DNA of 64,000 bases from contig NZ_CP016428.1 in the NCBI RefSeq assembly GCF_001693385.1, positions 7,802,001 to 7,866,000 on the forward strand, read 5' to 3'. A model generated the notes under the pieces. That model had not been told where the DNA came from and ran no database searches. It saw only the letters and a list, made by a program, of their open reading frames with translations. Position numbers and translations under genes: made by a program. Source of the stretch: Bradyrhizobium icense. Its GTDB lineage: Bacteria; Pseudomonadota; Alphaproteobacteria; Rhizobiales; Xanthobacteraceae. Positions 6,056 to 28,940 of the stretch are shown in pieces. Each line of letters begins with the position of its first letter. The stretch's first letter is position 1.

Positions 6056-7249
6056 ATGTCTGAAGTTGGTTCTACCAAGCGTTTTCGTCCCGAAACCCGC
6101 CTCGTCCATGGCGGTACGCTGCGCTCGCAGTTCGGCGAGACGTCGGAAGCGCTGTTCCTCACCCAAGGCTATGTCTACGACAGCGCGGAGCAGTGCGAGG
6201 CGCGCTTCAAGGGCGAGGATCCCGGCTTTATCTATTCGCGCTATTCCAATCCCACGATTTCAATGTTCGAGCGCCGAATGATCGAGCTCGAAGGCGCGGA
6301 AGCGGCTCGCTCCACCGCCACCGGCATGGCCGCGGTAACGACCGCGATCCTTGCACCGCTCAGAGCCGGCGATCATGTGGTGGCCTCGAAAGCCCTGTTC
6401 GGCTCCTGCCTTTACGTCGTGCAGGACCTCCTGCCGCGCTACGGGATCGAAACGACGCTGGTCGACGGTCTAGATCTCGATCAATGGCAGCGCGCATTGC
6501 GGCCCAGCACCAAGACCTTCTTCCTGGAGAGCCCGACCAACCCGACGCTCGATGTGCTCGATATTCCGGCGATTGCCGAGATCGCGCACAAGGGCGGCGC
6601 GCGGCTGGTCGTCGATAACGTCTTCGCCACGCCGATCTGGCAGAGCCCGCTTTCGCTCGGCGCCGATGTCGTGGTCTACTCCGCAACCAAACATATCGAC
6701 GGTCAAGGGCGCTGCCTCGGCGGCATCATTCTCTCGTCCGAAGCCTTCATCGCAGAGCACATTCACAACTTCATGCGCCAGACCGGACCATCGCTCTCGC
6801 CGTTCAACGCGTGGGTCCTGCTCAAGGGACTGGAGACGCTGGGCGTGCGGGTACGCGCGCAGACCGACAACGCGGCGAAAATCGCCGAGGCGTTGGCAAG
6901 CCATCCGAAGATTTCGCGATTGATCTATCCCGGCCGTGCCGATCATCCGCAAGCGGAGCTGGTGAAGAAGCAGATGCGCGGCGGCTCGACTTTGGTCGGC
7001 TTCGAGGTCAAGGGCGGCAAGGCGGCCGCCTTCCGCGTCCTCAATGCACTGCAGATATCGCGCATCTCCAACAATCTCGGCGATGCGAAGAGCCTCGTCA
7101 CGCATCCTGCGACCACCACGCATCAGCGACTCACGCCCGAAGCGCGCGCCGAGCTCGGCATCAGCGAGGGCTTTATCCGCTTCTCGGCCGGGCTCGAGCA
7201 TGCCGATGACCTGATCGAGGATTTTGCGCAGGCGCTAGAGAAGGCGTGA
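6056..7249 (+). CDS. metZ: O-succinylhomoserine sulfhydrylase
   Basis: A 397-residue PLP enzyme of the Cys/Met metabolism family that makes homocysteine from O-succinylhomoserine and sulfide, giving direct sulfhydrylation in methionine synthesis. The start MSEVGSTKRFRPETRLVHGG, the segment FIYSRYSNPT and the PLP-lysine motif VYSATKHIDGQGR (about residues 208-220) match MetZ rather than cystathionine enzymes. ATG 6056 follows GGAGG at 6047-6051. The leader carries a SAM-II riboswitch, which strongly supports a methionine role. It stands alone, with a converging SGNH gene downstream. Confidence 0.95.
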   Translation: MSEVGSTKRFRPETRLVHGGTLRSQFGETSEALFLTQGYVYDSAEQCEARFKGEDPGFIYSRYSNPTISMFERRMIELEGAEAARSTATGMAAVTTAILAPLRAGDHVVASKALFGSCLYVVQDLLPRYGIETTLVDGLDLDQWQRALRPSTKTFFLESPTNPTLDVLDIPAIAEIAHKGGARLVVDNVFATPIWQSPLSLGADVVVYSATKHIDGQGRCLGGIILSSEAFIAEHIHNFMRQTGPSLSPFNAWVLLKGLETLGVRVRAQTDNAAKIAEALASHPKISRLIYPGRADHPQAELVKKQMRGGSTLVGFEVKGGKAAAFRVLNALQISRISNNLGDAKSLVTHPATTTHQRLTPEARAELGISEGFIRFSAGLEHADDLIEDFAQALEKA

Positions 7250-21223: not shown

Positions 21224-21655
21224 TTATTCCGATGCCGGGGGCTTCGCCGGGGGAAAACAGGCGGTGAAGGGGGCACCGTTTTTTGGCACGCTTTCGATCA
21301 ACAGCCGGCCGCGATGGCGGTTAAGAATGTGTTTCACCAGGGATAAGCCGAGCCCGGTTCCACCCTGCGCGCGGCTATCGCCGACGTCGACCCGATAGAA
21401 GCGCTCGGTCAGCCGCGGCAGGTGTTCCGGCGCAATGCCGGGGCCGAAATCGCGGACCATGACGCGGACTTCCGGCGCGCGCTCGCCCGAACCGATCTGG
21501 CTCAGCGAGACGATTACCTTCCCGCCGGACGCGCCATATTTGAGCGCGTTCTCGATCAGGTTCTCGAACAGCCGCAACAGTTCCTCGCGATCGCCTGCAA
21601 TCGCGACCGGCATGTCCGGCAGGTCGATCTCGATCGCGACCTGGCGCTCCCTTGC
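21224..21655 (-). pseudogene. duplicated 3' end of phoR (PhoR ATPase-domain fragment)
   Basis: This stretch aligns without gaps (constant offset of 6415 bases) with the last 432 bases of the intact phoR at 27639-28070. By eye there are about 10 differences in 420 bases, so roughly 97-98% identity. It encodes only PhoR residues 291 to the end (N-box ENLIENALKYG, G-boxes DFGPGIAPEHL and GGTGLGLSLVKHI) and lacks the sensor and histidine domains and a start. Together with the intact copy it brackets the copper island, so it marks how the island entered. It should not make a working kinase. Confidence 0.9.
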
Positions 21656-21694
21656 GAGATTGCGAAGCGGATTGTTCGCTGTTAGCCTGTAAAT

Positions 21695-22057
21695 ATGCGC
21701 GTGACGGCCCAGTTGTTTCCGTTGCTGTTGATGGTCGCCGCACTCACTCTGCCGGTGGCCGCACGGGCTAGCGTGTCAACTGAGGCCCGCATTGAAGCGT
21801 CAGCCAGTTTCGTAAAACCTGCCGGTCGTCCGAACCCCAAGCACATGGTGGCACCTTGCCATGAGTGCTGGATGAAGGCCTGCGGCTCATATGCTGCTTG
21901 CGGCCTTTGCTGCGGTGCGGCGAGTGCCATCCTCCCCTCTGCGAGCGTGCTTGGATTGATAGGCCCGCGAGTGATAGCTCCCTCACCGATTCCGGACATT
22001 CGAGATCACCACGGCCCTCCGGACCCGTATCCTCCCAGACCCACCGCCTTCAGTTGA
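21695..22057 (+). CDS. small exported Cys-motif/Pro-tail protein (CutF-like), copy A
   Basis: A 120-residue protein with an N-terminal signal sequence (residues 1-24). A cysteine cluster follows (Cys55, 58, 63, 69, 72, 73, containing both C-x-x-C and C-x3-C), and the tail PPDPYPPRP (residues 108-116) is proline-rich. It shares the AAC-x(2-3)-C pattern and the same tail with the protein at 23392, so the two are paralogs. A hairpin (22088-22096 with 22115-22123) lies shortly after the stop. This resembles CutF-like nascent copper sensors, which stall through a C-terminal proline motif. The next gene is a protease, not an oxidase. No clear ribosome site is visible. Function is inferred. Confidence 0.65.
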   Translation: MRVTAQLFPLLLMVAALTLPVAARASVSTEARIEASASFVKPAGRPNPKHMVAPCHECWMKACGSYAACGLCCGAASAILPSASVLGLIGPRVIAPSPIPDIRDHHGPPDPYPPRPTAFS

Positions 22058-22087
22058 GGTGGCCGCAGTCGCAGCTGCCTCGCACTG

Positions 22088-22123
22088 TGCCGTCACGTGC
22101 CTGATCTCGAGCGTGTGACGGCA
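22088..22123 (+). promoter_or_regulatory. RNA hairpin after the copy A stop codon
   Basis: TGCCGTCAC (22088-22096) pairs perfectly with GTGACGGCA (22115-22123). It begins 30 bases after the stop of the small Cys-motif gene and has no T-run, so a regulatory or processing role fits better than termination. Confidence 0.5.
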
Positions 22124-22273
22124 ACCGGCAGAGAGCGACCCGTCGGAGGTCCTCAATCTTCCCGGTCTGCTGACGACGGGGATCCTCAAAGCGCAGTCGC
22201 TTGGATCGGCGGGTAGCCGAAACTGCCATCGTTTTTGGAGGCATTGCGCTGCCTAATTTTCGGGGAGGGGACC

Positions 22274-23149
22274 ATGATGCAGGCTACGCAAATTTTCATA
22301 GCCGTCGGAAGTTGGGCGATTCTGGCAACCGCTACGCTAGTCATCGCGACCACCGGCCCGCCAAGCGTCGGCGATCCCCAATCAATCCCTGCCAACGGAG
22401 AGGAGGCGCCTCAGGGCACCAATGTTGATCCCCGCCGTATTGTCGATGCGCGGCTGCCGCCCTACGCAGCAGTTGGCAGGTTCAAAGGCACGATGGGCTG
22501 CACGGCCGCCATAGTTCTTCATCCGAGGATCATCGTCACTGCAGCTCACTGCGTCACTCACAGAGATGGCTCGGTCAAACAGTCCAACTTGTCTTTTCGG
22601 TTAGGCTATCAGGCGGAAACCGCTCTTGGCGATTTTCAAGCGACCGTAGCGACCATCGGATCGATACAGAGCTTCAGGCGACAATCCGTCCACGATGCCT
22701 CGCGAGATTGGGCGATTCTCGTTCTTGATCGGGCGCCGGCGGGCGTCCACCCGTTTCTCTTGAGCTCTTATTCCGTTGCAAGCCTGAAATCGCTCGAGCA
22801 GCAAATCCTGATGCCGAGTTACTCAAACGATATCGGCGATGCGGAGGTTCTAAGCGTCGATCCGGCGTGCACCGTTCGTGACTTGGTTTGGCACGCACTC
22901 ATTCACGACTGCAAGGCACGGTACGGCTCATCTGGGGCTCCGCTGCTGGTACGAGATCGAGATGGACCTTGGTACGCAGTTGTCGGCATCCATACTGGCT
23001 CAATGTTCGCTAGTGACGAAGACGGCCACGTCGCGAAATTTATTGGAAATCGGGCCATCGCTGCCTCGATGTTCGCGGAGGCCGTGGTTGCGCTCTCGCG
23101 ACGCCTGGATGCCGATGCTGTACCTGACGTCGGCTCGGCTGCATACTGA
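22274..23149 (+). CDS. exported trypsin/V8-like serine protease
   Basis: A 291-residue protein with an N-terminal hydrophobic signal (residues 5-27). The chymotrypsin-fold triad is visible: His in IVTAAHCVTH, Asp in SRDWAILVLD, and Ser in YGSSGAPLLV. The ATG at 22274 follows a GGGGAGGGGACC purine-rich ribosome site. Base composition looks lower in GC than the flanking pst and phoR genes. It lies between the two small Cys-motif proteins in the copper island. Target unknown; periplasmic quality control is one possibility. Confidence 0.8.
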   Translation: MMQATQIFIAVGSWAILATATLVIATTGPPSVGDPQSIPANGEEAPQGTNVDPRRIVDARLPPYAAVGRFKGTMGCTAAIVLHPRIIVTAAHCVTHRDGSVKQSNLSFRLGYQAETALGDFQATVATIGSIQSFRRQSVHDASRDWAILVLDRAPAGVHPFLLSSYSVASLKSLEQQILMPSYSNDIGDAEVLSVDPACTVRDLVWHALIHDCKARYGSSGAPLLVRDRDGPWYAVVGIHTGSMFASDEDGHVAKFIGNRAIAASMFAEAVVALSRRLDADAVPDVGSAAY

Positions 23150-23391
23150 TAGACCGAATGAAGCTGAAACGCCGCCAATTCGAAAGTGAAGACCATGACA
23201 AGCGACCAGCCGATCAACTTGCCCAGGGCGCGCACCTCCACGAGCGTCCGTCTGCGCGATACCGCACCGATTATGCTGGAGCGCGCCGCCGTCACAATCC
23301 CGTGAGCCGAGGGCTCGGAGATGGAACAGGCATTCTGATACATCGTCCTGTCGGCCTAGCTTTTGGCCCAGCCAATCGCTATTTTGGCTGC

Positions 23392-23739
23392 ATGGCGAAG
23401 AAGGTCCGCCGCATCATGACGCTGTTGCTGGCCATCACGTTTATCGTGGGGCTGGTCCCTCATGGCATGCGCGCCGCGGATGCGGACCTGAAGATGGTCA
23501 TGGCTGCCGCCACCGACATGCCGATGTCAGGTGAGTGCGATCGTTGCGGCGATGATCAGGGGGCAATGACGGCAGCAGCATGCTCCGCCTACTGCGGCAG
23601 TTTTGCAGCCTTGCCCCTGATCGGAACGTTGTTTGAGCCGTCATCGGTCGAAACGGTGGGAGATTTGCCCGGACTAACTTCCGCCGGACATACAATTCCA
23701 CCCGATCCCTACCCTCCCAGGCCTGCCATCCTGAGCTGA
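23392..23739 (+). CDS. small exported Cys-motif/Pro-tail protein (CutF-like), copy B, upstream of multicopper oxidase
   Basis: A 115-residue protein starting MAKKVRRIMTLLLAITFIVG, a strong export signal. It has C-x-x-C (Cys49, 52) and C-x3-C (Cys64, 68), a Met-rich segment (residues 35-46) and the tail PPDPYPPRPAILS. In Rhodobacter capsulatus, CutF binds copper through C-x3-C during co-translational export and stalls at a C-terminal proline motif, which opens an mRNA hairpin that hides the start site of the oxidase CutO. Here a 9-bp hairpin begins three bases after the stop and the oxidase follows 127 bases downstream. The architecture is seen; the mechanism is inferred by analogy. Confidence 0.72.
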   Translation: MAKKVRRIMTLLLAITFIVGLVPHGMRAADADLKMVMAAATDMPMSGECDRCGDDQGAMTAAACSAYCGSFAALPLIGTLFEPSSVETVGDLPGLTSAGHTIPPDPYPPRPAILS

Positions 23740-23741
23740 GG

Positions 23742-23764
23742 CACGTCGCCGGCCCGGCGATGTG
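23742..23764 (+). promoter_or_regulatory. RNA hairpin between CutF-like gene and multicopper oxidase
   Basis: CACGTCGCC (23742-23750) pairs with GGCGATGTG (23756-23764) through a five-base loop (one G-U pair). It starts three bases after the stop codon at 23737-23739. GGCACGT (23740-23746) could alternatively pair with ACGTGCC (23830-23836), nearer the oxidase start, so two structures compete. Confidence 0.6.
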
Positions 23765-23866
23765 ATCCTCTCGCGCGCGTGATGCTGATAGCGTCGCAAG
23801 CGTGTCGAACGCACGTAGGCTTCATGGCCACGTGCCGCGAATCAACGCACAGGATCGGTTTTCGAA

Positions 23867-25297
23867 ATGCACTCTCATTCGGGTCCGGCGATCAGCCGCC
23901 GCGCACTCCTCATTGGCGGCACCGTGCTCGCTACGACAACCTCGTTGGCGCGTGTCGCACGCGCTGCACCGGCAGAACCGAACGTGATCGAGCTCACCGC
24001 CGCACCTGGTCGAGCACCGATCGTCGGCGCGCCTTATCCGCCCACGGATGTCTGGTGCTATGGGAATCGCATTCCCGGTCCGGAAATCCGGGTGCGCCAG
24101 GGCGAGCGCGTTCGCGTTGTCGTCCGGAACCAACTGCCGGAAGACACGACCGTGCATTGGCACGGCATCCGTCTACCGAATTCCATGGATGGCGTTCCTG
24201 GTCTCACGCAACCGCCGATCAAACCCGGCGAAAGCTTCACCTACGAATTCACGCCGCCCGATGCCGGGACGTTCTGGTACCACCCGCATGCTGACAGTCT
24301 GCGGCAACTCGGGCGGGGTATGGCGGGTGCCTTCATCGTCGAGGAGCCGACAGCGGTATCCGCTGATCGCGATCTTGTCTGGATGCTGTCGGACTGGCGC
24401 TTGACATCCGAAGCGCAAATCGCAGCCGGCTTTGGTAACGCGATGGAGGCGGCGATGTCGGGCCGCGTCGGCAACACGGTAACTCTCAATGGGGCCATAA
24501 CAGACGAGGTGCCGGTGCGCGCGGGCGAGCGCGTACGACTGCGTCTCGTGAACAGTTCACTGGCGCGAATTATGTCGCTCCGTTTCGAGGGTCACCGTCC
24601 GGCGATCGTGGCGATCGACGGCCAGCCCTGCGATCCCCACGAGCCCGAACGCGGCCGTGTCGTGCTTGGTCCGGCGATGCGCATCGATCTCATGATCGAC
24701 ATGCAAGGCGAACCGGGACGGCGCTACCGGGTCATCGACGATTTTTACGAGGGGCTTTCCTACTGGCTCACGCAGCTCGTCTACGAAGACAAGCCACCGC
24801 TCCGCGCCCATCATCTCGAACCTTCGCCTTCCCTTCCGCGCAATCCTTTACCGGAACCGGATTTGGCCGCTGCGGAGCGCCGCGAATTGCGATTGCAAGG
24901 CGGCATGATGGGCGGCGGGGGCATGATGGGAATGGGCGGCATGCAGGGCATGTCGCACGGCGCGAGCTGGGCCATTAACGGCACGTCCATGACCGGCGAT
25001 GGCCACGCGGACATGCCGCCGCTGCTGACGCTCCAGCTTGGCCGAAGCTACGTGCTGATCATCCGCAACCAAACGGCCTGGTGGCATCCGATGCATCTAC
25101 ACGGCCACAGCTTTCGGGTGATGACCCGCAATGGAACGGCAGCCCCTCATCGGCAATGGGCCGATACCGTTCTCGTACCGCCAAAGGAATCTGTCGAGGT
25201 CGCTTTCGTGGCAGACAATCCCGGCGACTGGATGATGCACTGCCACGTCACCGACCATCAGGTCTCGGGCATGATGACAGTGCTGCGCGTTGTATGA
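23867..25297 (+). CDS. Tat-exported multicopper oxidase (CopA/CueO/CutO-like)
   Basis: A 476-residue three-domain oxidase. The twin-arginine signal SRRALLIGG (residues 10-18) indicates export in folded form. Copper ligands are complete: HWHG (about 95-98), FWYHPHADS, HPMHLHGHSF (about 406-415) and HCHVTDHQ. A Met-rich loop (GGMMGGGGMMGMGGMQGM, about residues 346-364) resembles the substrate Cu(I) site of CueO-type enzymes. It would oxidise Cu(I) in the periplasm. The ATG has only a weak ribosome site (AGGA 12 bases upstream), which fits translation controlled by the upstream CutF-like gene. Confidence 0.92.
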   Translation: MHSHSGPAISRRALLIGGTVLATTTSLARVARAAPAEPNVIELTAAPGRAPIVGAPYPPTDVWCYGNRIPGPEIRVRQGERVRVVVRNQLPEDTTVHWHGIRLPNSMDGVPGLTQPPIKPGESFTYEFTPPDAGTFWYHPHADSLRQLGRGMAGAFIVEEPTAVSADRDLVWMLSDWRLTSEAQIAAGFGNAMEAAMSGRVGNTVTLNGAITDEVPVRAGERVRLRLVNSSLARIMSLRFEGHRPAIVAIDGQPCDPHEPERGRVVLGPAMRIDLMIDMQGEPGRRYRVIDDFYEGLSYWLTQLVYEDKPPLRAHHLEPSPSLPRNPLPEPDLAAAERRELRLQGGMMGGGGMMGMGGMQGMSHGASWAINGTSMTGDGHADMPPLLTLQLGRSYVLIIRNQTAWWHPMHLHGHSFRVMTRNGTAAPHRQWADTVLVPPKESVEVAFVADNPGDWMMHCHVTDHQVSGMMTVLRVV

Positions 25298-25323: not shown

Positions 25324-25767
25324 ATGAACCGACGAAGTTTCTGCCTTGGCGCCACACTCGCGATGCTGGTGCTGCCGCTGCCGACATTAGCTGAGCCGAC
25401 CCGGGCGACGTTGTACAAGAACCCGCAATGCAGTTGCTGTGAGGGGTATGCTGCATACCTTCGGCAGCATGGCTTCACCGTCGACGTGAAGCCAACCAAC
25501 GATCTCGCCGAGATCAGCAGCAAAGCCGGTGTCCCCGAAAAATTCCAGGGCTGCCACTCGATGTTCGTCGACGGCTACGTGATCGACGGACATGTCCCGG
25601 TGAACACGATCCGGAAGCTGCTGTCGGAGCAGCCGGCCATCGCCGGAATCACCCTTCCCGGCATGCCGGAGGGATCTCCAGGCATGACCGGCTTCAAACA
25701 TGGGCCCTTCACGATTTACGCGGTCACCAGGGGTGGCGCGCCACCAAAGATCTACGCCACGGAATAA
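25324..25767 (+). CDS. DUF411 family exported metal-binding protein
   Basis: A 147-residue protein with a signal peptide (RRSFCLGATLAMLVLPLPTLA) and the DUF411 core: YKNPQCSCCEGYAAYLRQHGF with C-x-C-C at about residues 36-39, QGCHSMFVDGYVIDGHVP, and LPGMPEGSPGM. DUF411 proteins are often found with copper resistance genes and probably bind copper in the periplasm. A strong ribosome site (AAAGGAGAATGAA) precedes the ATG. It is 26 bases after the oxidase, almost certainly the same operon. Confidence 0.9.
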   Translation: MNRRSFCLGATLAMLVLPLPTLAEPTRATLYKNPQCSCCEGYAAYLRQHGFTVDVKPTNDLAEISSKAGVPEKFQGCHSMFVDGYVIDGHVPVNTIRKLLSEQPAIAGITLPGMPEGSPGMTGFKHGPFTIYAVTRGGAPPKIYATE

Positions 25768-25869: not shown

Positions 25870-26526
25870 ATGAACGGCGTCGCTCGCATCGCACTACGTT
25901 CGGCCGCCCGATTGACCGCAGCGGCCGCTGTCGCCTTACTGACCCAACACGGAGCGGCACGGGCGGTACCGCAGAACTTTGTCATGCATCCGGCACCGAA
26001 GGCGGTGCCAGCGGTCACATTCGAAGTTGAAACCGGAGCCAGTCAGAGCCTTGCCGAATTCACGGGGAAGGTTGTCGTCCTCAACATCTGGGCGACCTGG
26101 TGCGTCCCCTGCCGGCTCGAAATGCCGGCTCTCGATCGTCTGCAGTCGATCCTGGGCAGCGATGGTTTCGCGGTGGTGCCCGTTTCGATTGATCGCGGCG
26201 GAATCGAAGCGGTAAAGAAATTCTATGGTGAAATTGCGATCAAGAATCTCCCGATCTACCTCGATGTGTCTGGTCAGGCCGTCCGGCGGCTCGATGCAGT
26301 CGGACTGCCGACCACGCTGATCCTCGATCGCAACGGACAAGAGATTGTTCGCGTCATAGGGCCGGCCGAATGGGACGCGCCTGAGATAACGGAATTCCTG
26401 AAGTCGATCATCGCAAGGAAAGTCGATTCAATCGAGCAGGTTGCCCACAACGACGATCGTCACGAATCAACGCCGGGACTGCTCGCGCGCGGCCTTCGAT
26501 GGCTGAAGGCACTCGTCGCCAAATGA
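25870..26526 (+). CDS. TlpA/ResA-like periplasmic thioredoxin
   Basis: A 218-residue thioredoxin-fold protein with an N-terminal signal (residues 5-32) and the active site WATWCVPCRLEMP (Cys at about 78 and 81), followed by the cis-Pro region GLPTTLILDRNG. TlpA-type proteins keep cysteines of copper chaperones such as SCO reduced during cytochrome oxidase assembly. The SCO gene two positions downstream fits this. An 18-codon reading frame (25817-25873) overlaps its start as ATGA and may help coupling, but it lacks a clear ribosome site. Confidence 0.87.
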   Translation: MNGVARIALRSAARLTAAAAVALLTQHGAARAVPQNFVMHPAPKAVPAVTFEVETGASQSLAEFTGKVVVLNIWATWCVPCRLEMPALDRLQSILGSDGFAVVPVSIDRGGIEAVKKFYGEIAIKNLPIYLDVSGQAVRRLDAVGLPTTLILDRNGQEIVRVIGPAEWDAPEITEFLKSIIARKVDSIEQVAHNDDRHESTPGLLARGLRWLKALVAK

Positions 26527-26540
26527 AGGGAGAAAAGCTC

Positions 26541-26813
26541 ATGCCGAAGCTCAGAACTACACTCGCACTCGCTACCGCAATCGTTGTGGCGACAATCGCC
26601 GCGCAGACGCTTTACGCGCAGGACAGCTCGACGAGCCGCCACCGCATGATGGACGGCGATCCTGCTCGAGGCACGATGGGCATTACGAAGATGATGCACC
26701 AGATGAGCGGGATGATGGATCACTGCAGCAGCATGATGCAGAACCGCGGCACTGGTCGGCCTAATGATCAGTGGCGCAGGCGCGCACCAACAGCGCCCGA
26801 TAACGAGAGCTGA
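26541..26813 (+). CDS. small exported Met/His-rich protein
   Basis: A 90-residue protein with a signal peptide (MPKLRTTLALATAIVVATIAAQTLYAQ). The Met- and His-rich segment ITKMMHQMSGMMDHCSSMMQ (about residues 48-67) is suited to binding Cu(I). A GAAGGGAGAAAAGCTC ribosome site precedes the ATG, 14 bases after the TlpA-like gene. I do not recognise a named family. A periplasmic copper buffer or chaperone is the most likely role given the operon. Confidence 0.75.
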   Translation: MPKLRTTLALATAIVVATIAAQTLYAQDSSTSRHRMMDGDPARGTMGITKMMHQMSGMMDHCSSMMQNRGTGRPNDQWRRRAPTAPDNES

Positions 26814-26861: not shown

Positions 26862-27554
26862 ATGCAAATCCCATTGGTCCTAACTCTGGCGGTCGCTTTG
26901 GCAACGGTTGCCTCGGCTGTCTCGGCACATTCCCTGAAGGAACTCGAGGGCATGCTGGGCGATCGGGAGAAGTATTTCCAGGCCGTCGACAAAGCAGCGC
27001 CCGAATTCACCCTTCAGGATGCGGAGGGGCGGACGACCAGCCTCGCGGATTTCCGCGGCAAGGTGGTCGTCCTGAATTTCATTTACGCCAGCTGTCCTGA
27101 CATATGCCCGTTGCACGCCGACCGGATCGCCGAGATCCAGGGCCTGATCAATCAGTCGCCGATGAAAACGCAGGTCCAGTTCATCAGCATCACTACGGAC
27201 CCGAGCAAGGATACGTCAGACGTTCTCCGCCACTACGGCCAGGCTCACAGGCTCGATTCCGCAAACTGGCTCTTTCTGACTACCAGATCTGATCAGTCGG
27301 AGGATGCCACACGCAACCTCGCGGAGCGGTTCGGCCATCGGTTCGACAAGACGCCGGGGGGCTATCAAATCCACAGCATCGTGACGCATGTCATCGACAG
27401 CCAGGGTCGCTGGCGAGCCAGTTTCCACGGCTTGAAGTTCGAGCCAACCAATCTCGTCGTGTTCGTCAACGCCTTGGTCAATGACGCTGAGAAGCCGCAT
27501 GGCCACATCGCGCCCGGCGTGTGGGAAAAGATCAAGAGGTTGTTCGGATCCTGA
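26862..27554 (+). CDS. SCO1/SenC family copper chaperone
   Basis: A 230-residue exported thioredoxin-fold protein. The copper site C-x3-C is visible in YASCPDICPLHADR (Cys about 78 and 82), and the conserved His follows in HSIVTHVIDSQGRW. SCO proteins deliver copper to the CuA centre of cytochrome oxidase or act as thiol reductants. The ATG at 26862 is chosen over 26850 because GGAGG lies six bases before it. It ends the copper island on the right, facing phoR tail to tail. Confidence 0.9.
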   Translation: MQIPLVLTLAVALATVASAVSAHSLKELEGMLGDREKYFQAVDKAAPEFTLQDAEGRTTSLADFRGKVVVLNFIYASCPDICPLHADRIAEIQGLINQSPMKTQVQFISITTDPSKDTSDVLRHYGQAHRLDSANWLFLTTRSDQSEDATRNLAERFGHRFDKTPGGYQIHSIVTHVIDSQGRWRASFHGLKFEPTNLVVFVNALVNDAEKPHGHIAPGVWEKIKRLFGS

Positions 27555-27638: not shown

Positions 27639-28940
27639 TTAACTTGCCGTCGGGGGCTTGGCCTGGGGAAAACAGGCGGTGAAGGTGGCACCGTTTTTCG
27701 GCACGCTTTCGATCAACAGCCGGCCGCGATGGCGGTTAAGAATATGTTTCACCAAGGATAAGCCGAGCCCGGTTCCACCCTGCGCGCGGCTATCGCCGAC
27801 GTCGACCCGGTAGAAGCGCTCGGTCAGCCGCGGCAGGTGTTCTGGCGCAATGCCGGGGCCGAAATCGCGGACCATGACGCGGACTTCCGGCGCGCCCTCA
27901 CCCGAACCGATCTGGCTCAGCGAGACGATTACCTTCCCGCCGGACGCGCCATATTTGAGCGCGTTCTCGATCAGGTTCTCGAACAGCCGCAACAGTTCCT
28001 CGCGATCGCCTGCAATCGCGACCGGCATGTCCGGCAGGTCGATCTCGATCGCGACCTGGCGCTCCCTTGCCAGCGGCTCCAGCCCGTCGGCGACCTGGCG
28101 GATGATCGGCACGATATCGACGCAGGCTTCGGGGCGCACATGCGCCGACAGTTCGACCCGCGACAGCGACAGCAAATCGTCGATCAGCCGCGCCATCCGG
28201 GTCGCCTGCGTATGCATGATCGAGAGAAAGCGCTCGCGCGCCTTGGCGTCGTCCTTGGCCGGGCCCTGCAGCGTATCGATGAAGCCTGATAGGGCGGCGA
28301 GCGGCGTGCGCAGCTCGTGGCTGGCATTGGCAACGAAATCGGCGCGCATTTCCTCGACCCTGCGCAACGGCGTCTGGTCGTGGAAGGTCATCAGCATGCA
28401 TCTTTCGGTGCCGCCGAACAGCGTCGGCACCGGCACCGGCGTGATGACCAGTTCCATCCAGCGGTCAACCGGCACCTGGTCGAGATAATTGGCGCGACGC
28501 GGCTCGCTGGTCGCGATCGCCTCGCGCAACGCGGTGATGATCTCGGGCGACCGCAGCGCGAACTGGGCAAGTTCGTTCTTGCGCAGCGCGGGCGCGAGCT
28601 GGGCCGCCGCCACATTGAGATGAATGACGCGGCCGGCACGGTCGAGCAGCACGGCCGGATCCGGCATGCCGGCAACGACCGCGCTGACGGCGGCGGACTC
28701 GACCGGACTGACGGCGCGGACGTCTTCGCGGGAGCCGGCGGAATCATGCAGACGCCACGGCACCAGCGCCGCGGCTGCGATGCAGATGAAGACCGCCACG
28801 GCGCGCGCCAGCGAGAGATCGGCCAACAGCACCAGCGCGCAAAGCGCCAGCCCCGCAGCCAACAGGATGATGGCCGAATGCCGCAACCGGTCCGGCCACG
28901 GTGCAAAGAAGGAGGAAGAGCTGGAATCGTCTATTGCCAT
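27639..28940 (-). CDS. phoR: phosphate regulon sensor histidine kinase PhoR
   Basis: A 433-residue membrane sensor kinase. Two N-terminal membrane helices (about residues 20-62) are followed by a PAS-like region (MPDPAVLLDRAGRVIHLN), the phospho-acceptor His in NASHELRTPLAALSGFID (about residue 210), and the ATPase domain with N, G1 and G2 boxes. It phosphorylates PhoB at low phosphate. Its last 143 codons are duplicated next to pstS. If the ancestral order was phoR-pstS, the copper island now separates the kinase from the rest of its operon by about 6.5 kb. Confidence 0.95.
   Translation of the reverse strand: MAIDDSSSSSFFAPWPDRLRHSAIILLAAGLALCALVLLADLSLARAVAVFICIAAAALVPWRLHDSAGSREDVRAVSPVESAAVSAVVAGMPDPAVLLDRAGRVIHLNVAAAQLAPALRKNELAQFALRSPEIITALREAIATSEPRRANYLDQVPVDRWMELVITPVPVPTLFGGTERCMLMTFHDQTPLRRVEEMRADFVANASHELRTPLAALSGFIDTLQGPAKDDAKARERFLSIMHTQATRMARLIDDLLSLSRVELSAHVRPEACVDIVPIIRQVADGLEPLARERQVAIEIDLPDMPVAIAGDREELLRLFENLIENALKYGASGGKVIVSLSQIGSGEGAPEVRVMVRDFGPGIAPEHLPRLTERFYRVDVGDSRAQGGTGLGLSLVKHILNRHRGRLLIESVPKNGATFTACFPQAKPPTAS

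Follow-up and report, generated by a model that had tools for sequence, protein, structure and literature searches.

The small open reading frame in front of a multicopper oxidase gene in Bradyrhizobium icense raises the question of whether this oxidase is governed by a copper switch of the CutF kind and, if so, which RNA element hides its start. The window (the whole 64,000-nt stretch of DNA that was analyzed) carries the leader ORF at 23392–23739 on the plus strand; the oxidase, DUF411, TlpA-like, and SCO genes, the pause site and RNA stems, and the second CutF-like ORF described below are on this strand too. The oxidase is the next gene (23867–25297; Pfam PF07732, PF07731, and PF00394); it starts 127 nt after the leader stop codon, stands in the cutO position, and begins with a Tat-type signal (SRRALL, by reading). 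It is followed by a DUF411 protein in the cutG/copG position (25324–25767; PF04214; PDB 6wis at E 3.4e-20), a TlpA/ResA-like thiol-disulfide protein (25870–26526; below the NCBIfam cut-offs), and an SCO1/SenC protein (26862–27554; PF02630). In the cited passages of PMC8456105, the Rhodobacter capsulatus cutFOG operon comprises a leader with C69-x3-C73 and the tail P109EPEGPPPRL118, a Tat-exported oxidase, and CutG, a CopG homologue modeled on PDB 6WIS, and SenC is among the named neighbors of CutF-like genes. The locus is an operon of the cutF-cutO-cutG type, so the link to DUF411, which an initial annotation of this DNA had taken to be undescribed, was already on record. A Met-rich small ORF between the TlpA-like and SCO genes (26541–26813) matched no NCBIfam model at E values up to 0.01, and a longer reading of it gave a sub-threshold Pfam hit (E 0.12). 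A 420-bp piece from the 3′ end of a histidine kinase gene that reads as phoR-like occurs in two copies (21236–21655 and 27651–28070; 97.6%), one on either side of the whole copper block. Among named loci, the nearest are those of Bradyrhizobium murdochi and B. retamae, whose leaders are 91% and 90% identical to that of the window; both have the same copper block with similar repeats.

The leader has 115 residues with Cys64, Cys68, and the motif PPDPYPPRP at residues 103–111 of its tail (PPDPYPPRPAILS), as had been annotated. It also holds a C-x2-C pair absent from that annotation, Cys49 and Cys52; the four cysteines (23535–23595) are accompanied by Met residues, and the N terminus (KKVRR, a hydrophobic run, then GMRA) resembles a putative Sec signal peptide by reading. 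The published rules for CutF-like proteins, in the parts of the two papers cited, are a length below 170 residues without a Pfam domain, a C-x3-C motif, a Sec signal peptide, and a copper oxidase within a ten-gene window (PMC8456105), together with Pro-Pro close to the C terminus (both papers; within 15 residues in PMC9973294). The 115-residue leader matched no Pfam family at E values up to 1 and no NCBIfam model at E values up to 0.01, its C-x3-C is formed by Cys64 and Cys68, Pro108-Pro109 lies near the end of the 115 residues, and the oxidase is within the ten-gene window. By the corresponding signs of the CruR/DUF2946 family, PF11162 gave no match at E values up to 1 (for member 1, none up to 10), and the window tail PPDPYPPRPAILS lacks an RAPP-like motif. 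Homologue searches yielded 43 leader relatives. In an alignment of 32 rows (29 of the 43, one homologue of a second ORF of the window, and the two window ORFs), Cys49, Cys64, Cys68, and the four tail prolines were invariant and the stretch from Cys68 to the tail was gap-free; position 49 is Tyr in L044, a genomic relative from outside this alignment. The spacing from C-x3-C to Pro-Pro is 40 residues in the window leader and 39–42 in its relatives; among 50 tails examined, 45 have C-x3-C, and 41 of these show 40–41 residues. The 8.3-Mb genome contains two exact PDPYPPRP-coding sites, both in the window, and no control matches. The string PPDPYPP occurred in no paper searched, most subscription papers lying outside that search.

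A genomic set of 60 tail-bearing places was assembled by searches that were neutral to codon choice, as they used proteins, a peptide pattern, or MGN for the Arg codon. The oxidase is the next gene in 45 of them. Two were chance tails (L064 and L071) and were dropped, and collapsing near-duplicates reduced the remaining 58 to 50 tails for codon counts and, with plasmid loci included, 56 loci to 40 for covariation. In the window, CCT-CCC-AGG (Pro108-Pro109-Arg110; 23713–23721) is the predicted pause site, on the basis of its codon signature. Arg follows Pro-Pro in 47 of the 50 non-redundant tails and is encoded by AGA (25), CGA (18), AGG (3), or CGT (1), never by CGC or CGG, although these two account for ∼74% of Arg codons in the oxidase genes. 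The share of AGA, CGA, and AGG at this place, 46 of 47, compares with 14.2% in the oxidase genes. In the part of these ORFs before the tail, Arg is encoded by CGC 28, CGT 18, CGG 13, CGA 9, AGG 6, and AGA 6 times, so that slow codons there (21/80) also exceed the oxidase-gene level. The first Pro of the motif is CCT in 41 of the 50 tails (5.3 expected). In a set of plasmid loci that was not de-duplicated, all eight Arg codons were CGA or AGA, and three leaders have Lys. DUF2946 relatives with RxPP tails in the same order (23 of 30 loci looked at) mostly use CGC (15) and in four cases a slow codon. AGA, AGG, and CGA are slow Arg codons in Escherichia coli and are probably slow in these hosts too. 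Frameshifting at CC(C/U) before a slow Arg codon was considered and dropped by reasoning, as such a slip does not fit CCT-AGA.

The codons that follow this site provide the partner of the oxidase Shine–Dalgarno (SD) sequence. The SD, AGGA at 23851–23854, is weak, as had been annotated, with a spacing of 12 nt. The tail codons GCC ATC CTG (23725–23733) form the 5′, anti-SD strand of a helix, termed P1, whose 3′ strand CAGGAT-C-GGT (23850–23859) holds the SD; ATC-CTG after Pro-Pro-Arg is complementary to CAGGAT. In the window P1 is short, with 6 bp and a further 3 beyond a bulge, and it is present in the minimum free energy (MFE) fold. The two strands differ between lineages in step with each other, for example ATCCTG:CAGGAT in the window, CGTCCTG:CAGGACG in L006, TTCAACGATCT:AGATCGTTGGA in L098, CTCTCCATCTAG:TTGGATGGAGGG in L103, and CTCATCTGA:TCAGATGAG in L095; L017 showed no uninterrupted tail–SD helix of at least 5 bp. 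The tests of P1 with 45 loci, with 33 non-redundant loci, and with 34 loci drew on the 45 of 60 tail places with the oxidase next; start codons of some loci were set manually or from the SD score, pairing playing no part in the choice, and the 33-locus set omits L007, whose start was mis-set and which is included in later sets. Tail–SD covariation gave z 7.4 in the 33 loci (0/20000 permutations) and z 9.1 in the 40 non-redundant loci among all 56 (0/20000). Sliding controls on 34 loci peaked at z 7.8 for a 20-nt window ending at the oxidase start codon; SD-side windows shifted by 5–10 nt gave z 5.5–7.5, and those missing the SD gave z −1.7 to 1.7. On the coding side of these 34 loci, z was −1.1 to 1.5 for windows at least 21 nt upstream of the Arg codon, 5.1 and 2.0 for the two windows overlapping the tail, and −0.9 for one beyond the tail. 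By sequence comparison the covariation signal is confined to the SD region. Synonymous recoding of the 34 tails lowered the pairing score (z 5.3, 0/500), and at least five tail–SD pairs occurred in the MFE folds of 45/45 loci, where 14.1 were expected from shuffles. The published R. capsulatus mechanism involves an RNA structure that shields the oxidase SD, and P1 is a candidate for that role through covariation in relatives and its presence in the window MFE.

Plasmid-borne loci extended the comparison. Eighteen were hand-picked for variety from the 60 listed rows of 290 oxidase-found records; by eye, a CutF-like ORF stands directly upstream in 11 of the 18, and cytochrome c or other genes are found in seven. 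P1 appeared in the folds of the 11/11 oxidase-picked plasmid loci (at least five tail–SD pairs, counted with no shuffle control), and the divergent tails SLDPFPPKLPV, QPPRFLL, and PPPPRFSANTV each pair with their own SD, e.g., GATTTTCCGCA:TGCGGAAGATC. The six plasmid loci left after removing near-duplicates, both mutual and of the first set, gave z 3.3 (111/20000). The window tail alone showed no preference for its own SD over the others (rank 0.48; synonymous null p 0.358). A per-locus RNAduplex test, which is weak because pairing comes easily to GC-rich strands, reached p <0.05 in only four of 32 loci (30 with the oxidase, and L048 and L050:6339 as manual additions). P1 was missed by RNAalifold run on a MAFFT alignment of 20 loci, in our opinion because the helix register shifts between lineages. 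Fixed-register pair counts on the MAFFT alignment were 75.7% versus 20.7–45.1% in slid versions, and they did not beat column shuffles (98/500 for the covariation score, 87/500 for cells paired). As the sequences are related, nominal P values overstate independence. The case for P1 is comparative, and the pairing in the window by itself is not statistically distinctive. The Arg codon is paired in 25 of the 45 MFE folds, where an RNA constraint may therefore explain part of the codon choice, and is fully unpaired in 20, where P1 pairing does not explain it. In the same literature, among the papers listed on cutF with stalling and SD, CutF-like proteins with codon and SD, alphaproteobacterial arrest peptides, and DUF2946 uORFs, no title named a tail-coded anti-SD. 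Rfam gave no match within 21600–24000 at E values up to 5.

The region between leader and oxidase is itself predicted to be structured: the fold of 23719–23869 had z −4.07 (0/200 shuffles). A hairpin, P2 (23738–23770), begins in the leader stop codon and forms a 14-bp stem with a 2-nt bulge in the MFE, its core being the 9-bp hairpin at 23742–23764 (one G-U); further stems P3 (23771–23808) and P4 (23811–23835) are predicted from the window only. The 9-bp hairpin had been proposed to hide the oxidase start. It exists, and a stem directly after the stop codon is kept in 51/56 related loci (21.2 expected); however, P2 lies ∼80 nt from the oxidase SD, which is covered by P1. Comparison of the loci thus points to the conserved helix between tail codons and SD, rather than this hairpin, as the element that hides the oxidase start. 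A second pairing that had been suggested, 23740–23746 with 23830–23836, is complementary in the window, but 40 loci gave z −1.1 and 4308/5000 permutations reached its score.

We propose, with a probability of about 0.7, that the leader works as a CutF-like copper switch, acting in cis and coupled to export, whose arrest codons also supply the anti-SD strand and whose slow Arg codon helps to set the pause. The conserved motifs, the operon, P1 covariation, the stem after the stop codon, and the codon signature come from comparison of related loci; export, stalling, copper dependence, and a role of slow decoding in shaping the codon choice are what we infer, the copper effect and its sign being taken by analogy from CutF. 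The leader would be targeted to Sec during its synthesis, and nascent chains would slow or stall at Pro-Pro-Arg, a state that, as for CutF, copper on the Cys cluster may favor. A slow Arg codon (AGA, CGA, or AGG) would lengthen the pause when Pro-Pro is in the P site. A ribosome paused there would cover the codons just behind Pro-Pro-Arg; these are the anti-SD strand of P1, so the pause would keep P1 open, the oxidase SD would be exposed, and the Tat-exported oxidase would be made. Once the ribosome finished and left, P1 would re-form over the inner stems and turn the oxidase off. When a ribosome footprint at Pro-Pro-Arg was masked in model folds of 56 loci, mean SD openness rose from 0.14 to 0.37, compared to 0.17 with a control mask, and it increased by more than 0.2 in 30/56 loci versus 5/56. 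For the window the modeled opening is small, from 0.05 to 0.21 with Arg in the A site or 0.10 with Arg in the P site, and the control mask opened the SD more (0.30) than did the ribosome mask. From the 40–41 residues between the Cys motif and Pro-Pro, the Cys site would at the pause lie close to where the chain leaves the ribosome or enters Sec, a position that would sit uneasily with periplasmic copper sensing.

Three other explanations deserve weight. The leader could be a periplasmic copper chaperone for the oxidase, with a Pro-rich tail that binds protein and RNA features that are incidental. That was the earlier view of CutF in the cited part of PMC8456105, and it accords with the Cys cluster and Met residues of the leader. 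We regard it as very improbable, since protein function leaves unexplained why, in each lineage, the synonymous codons of the tail follow that lineage's SD, and since R. capsulatus CutF has no effect in trans and can be dispensed with when the stem-loop is mutated, according to the passages of PMC9973294 cited. Plain translational coupling free of copper sensing, in which any ribosome reaching the leader end opens the oxidase SD, draws on the fact that any passing ribosome would open P1. Coupling helices at gene borders are common. Nevertheless, the conserved cysteines, the near-fixed spacing from Cys to Pro-Pro, and the slow Arg codon would be superfluous for such coupling, which makes this explanation unlikely.

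The remaining alternative is control like that of CruR, whereby a stall at the tail would shield RNA from Rho and the target of copper would be operon transcription, not oxidase translation. The general protein type is shared, DUF2946 weakly matches six of the 32 aligned members (best E 0.0063), and the tail coding stretch reads as C-rich and G-poor from its codons. The window protein, however, lacks both a DUF2946 match and RAPP, DUF2946 relatives have ordinary Arg codons, the sequence between leader and oxidase is rich in structure with P1 over the SD, and copper would be expected to raise, not lower, a detoxifying oxidase; Rho-type control therefore seems improbable here. In the cited parts of PMC9426467 and PMC12992588, CruR/DUF2946 proteins of Bordetella resemble the window leader as nascent copper-sensing leaders with a Cys motif and a proline-based C-terminal stall at fixed spacing, and differ in an RAPP motif with common codons, Rho dependence, and the lowering of expression by copper. 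Arrest of CruR was shown in vitro (PMC12992588, as cited), having been listed in 2024, together with that of CutF, as undemonstrated (PMC10987492, as cited). The DUF2946 leaders of the same order (L160–L189) displayed a weaker tail–SD covariation (28 loci, z 3.1, 12/5000), and some of the ORF picks in that set look wrong.

The CutF-type switch that we favor is closest to R. capsulatus cutF-cutO-cutG, with which the locus shares a small leader (exported there, putatively exported here), C-x3-C, a C-terminal Pro-Pro-Arg, a Tat oxidase, and a CopG-type third gene (parts cited of PMC8456105 and PMC9973294), as well as an RNA structure over the oxidase SD (PMC9973294). The published positions alone place the last Cys of R. 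capsulatus CutF ∼42 residues before Pro-Pro-Arg, compared to 40 in the window leader. The annotated CutF-like switch is upheld in this spacing and in the published rules that could be applied, and fails in the role given to the hairpin and in the novelty of DUF411. The sections of PMC9973294 cited describe R. capsulatus CutF as cis-acting, translated, and exported, and as no longer needed after mutation of the stem-loop that covers the cutO SD; stalled CutF was not directly detected, copper-slowed export was deduced from reduced proteolysis, and the Pro-rich tail alone caused no strong stall. In that species a stem-loop lies between cutF and cutO, with CTTC as the mutated anti-SD, whereas in the window the anti-SD lies in the codons after Pro-Pro-Arg; CTTC cannot be encoded within PEPEGPPPRL-stop, so the R. 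capsulatus anti-SD must lie outside the last ten codons. The window type differs further in its PPDPYPPRP tail and in an intergenic stretch of ∼90–165 nt with several predicted stems. A search of the class for the R. capsulatus tail (385 genomes) returned 27 matches, none a plausible CutF on inspection. SecM, MifM, VemP, and related arrest peptides are similar to the proposed switch in that a stalled ribosome disrupts RNA hiding the SD of the next gene; they differ in monitoring Sec or YidC activity rather than a metal and in their stall motifs (PMC10987492, as cited).

The window contains a second CutF-like ORF (21695–22057; 120 residues) whose PPDPYPPRP tail is identical to that of the first over nine residues, with different codons at seven of the nine and AGA for Arg. 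It precedes a trypsin-like gene (PF00089), the pair spanning 21695–23149. The protease is found in six of 257 genomes of the genus (E up to 1e-40); a CutF-like ORF stands directly upstream of it in four inspected loci (that of the window's own genome and three divergent ones), and the remaining two protease genomes (G226 and G239) have a CutF-like ORF there as well (L041 and L042). The tail–SD folds before the trypsin-like gene are inconsistent. It seems unusual for a protease that looks exported to be preceded by a leader of the copper type. A Tepidamorphus MAG (L050) carries tandem CutF-like leaders 4.3 kb apart (2007–2046 and 6300–6339), the first before an oxidase-like gene (33% identity) and the second before a gene with a Tat-like start that did not match the window oxidase. 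On the minus strand of L077, near the oxidase locus, lies a second, oppositely placed CutF-like ORF with the tail PDPFPPRPVDIA, an AGA Arg codon, and a tail end at 2573 of the reverse complement.

At even odds, in our judgment, these leaders represent a widespread alphaproteobacterial RNA–peptide switch in which the arrest codons serve both as a copper-responsive Pro-Pro-Arg pause and as the anti-SD, a nearly obligatory slow Arg codon sets the length of the pause, and peptide, codon, and helix are co-selected, with similar leaders having come to serve further targets, a secreted trypsin-like protease among them. The tail–SD covariation of DUF2946 leaders may point to a wider rule still, and the distance from Cys to the pause would bear on whether copper is truly sensed in the periplasm. 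CutF-type control would then pass from one studied locus to a rule recognizable in sequence: a pause at prolines, a slow Arg codon immediately following, and then the anti-SD codons.
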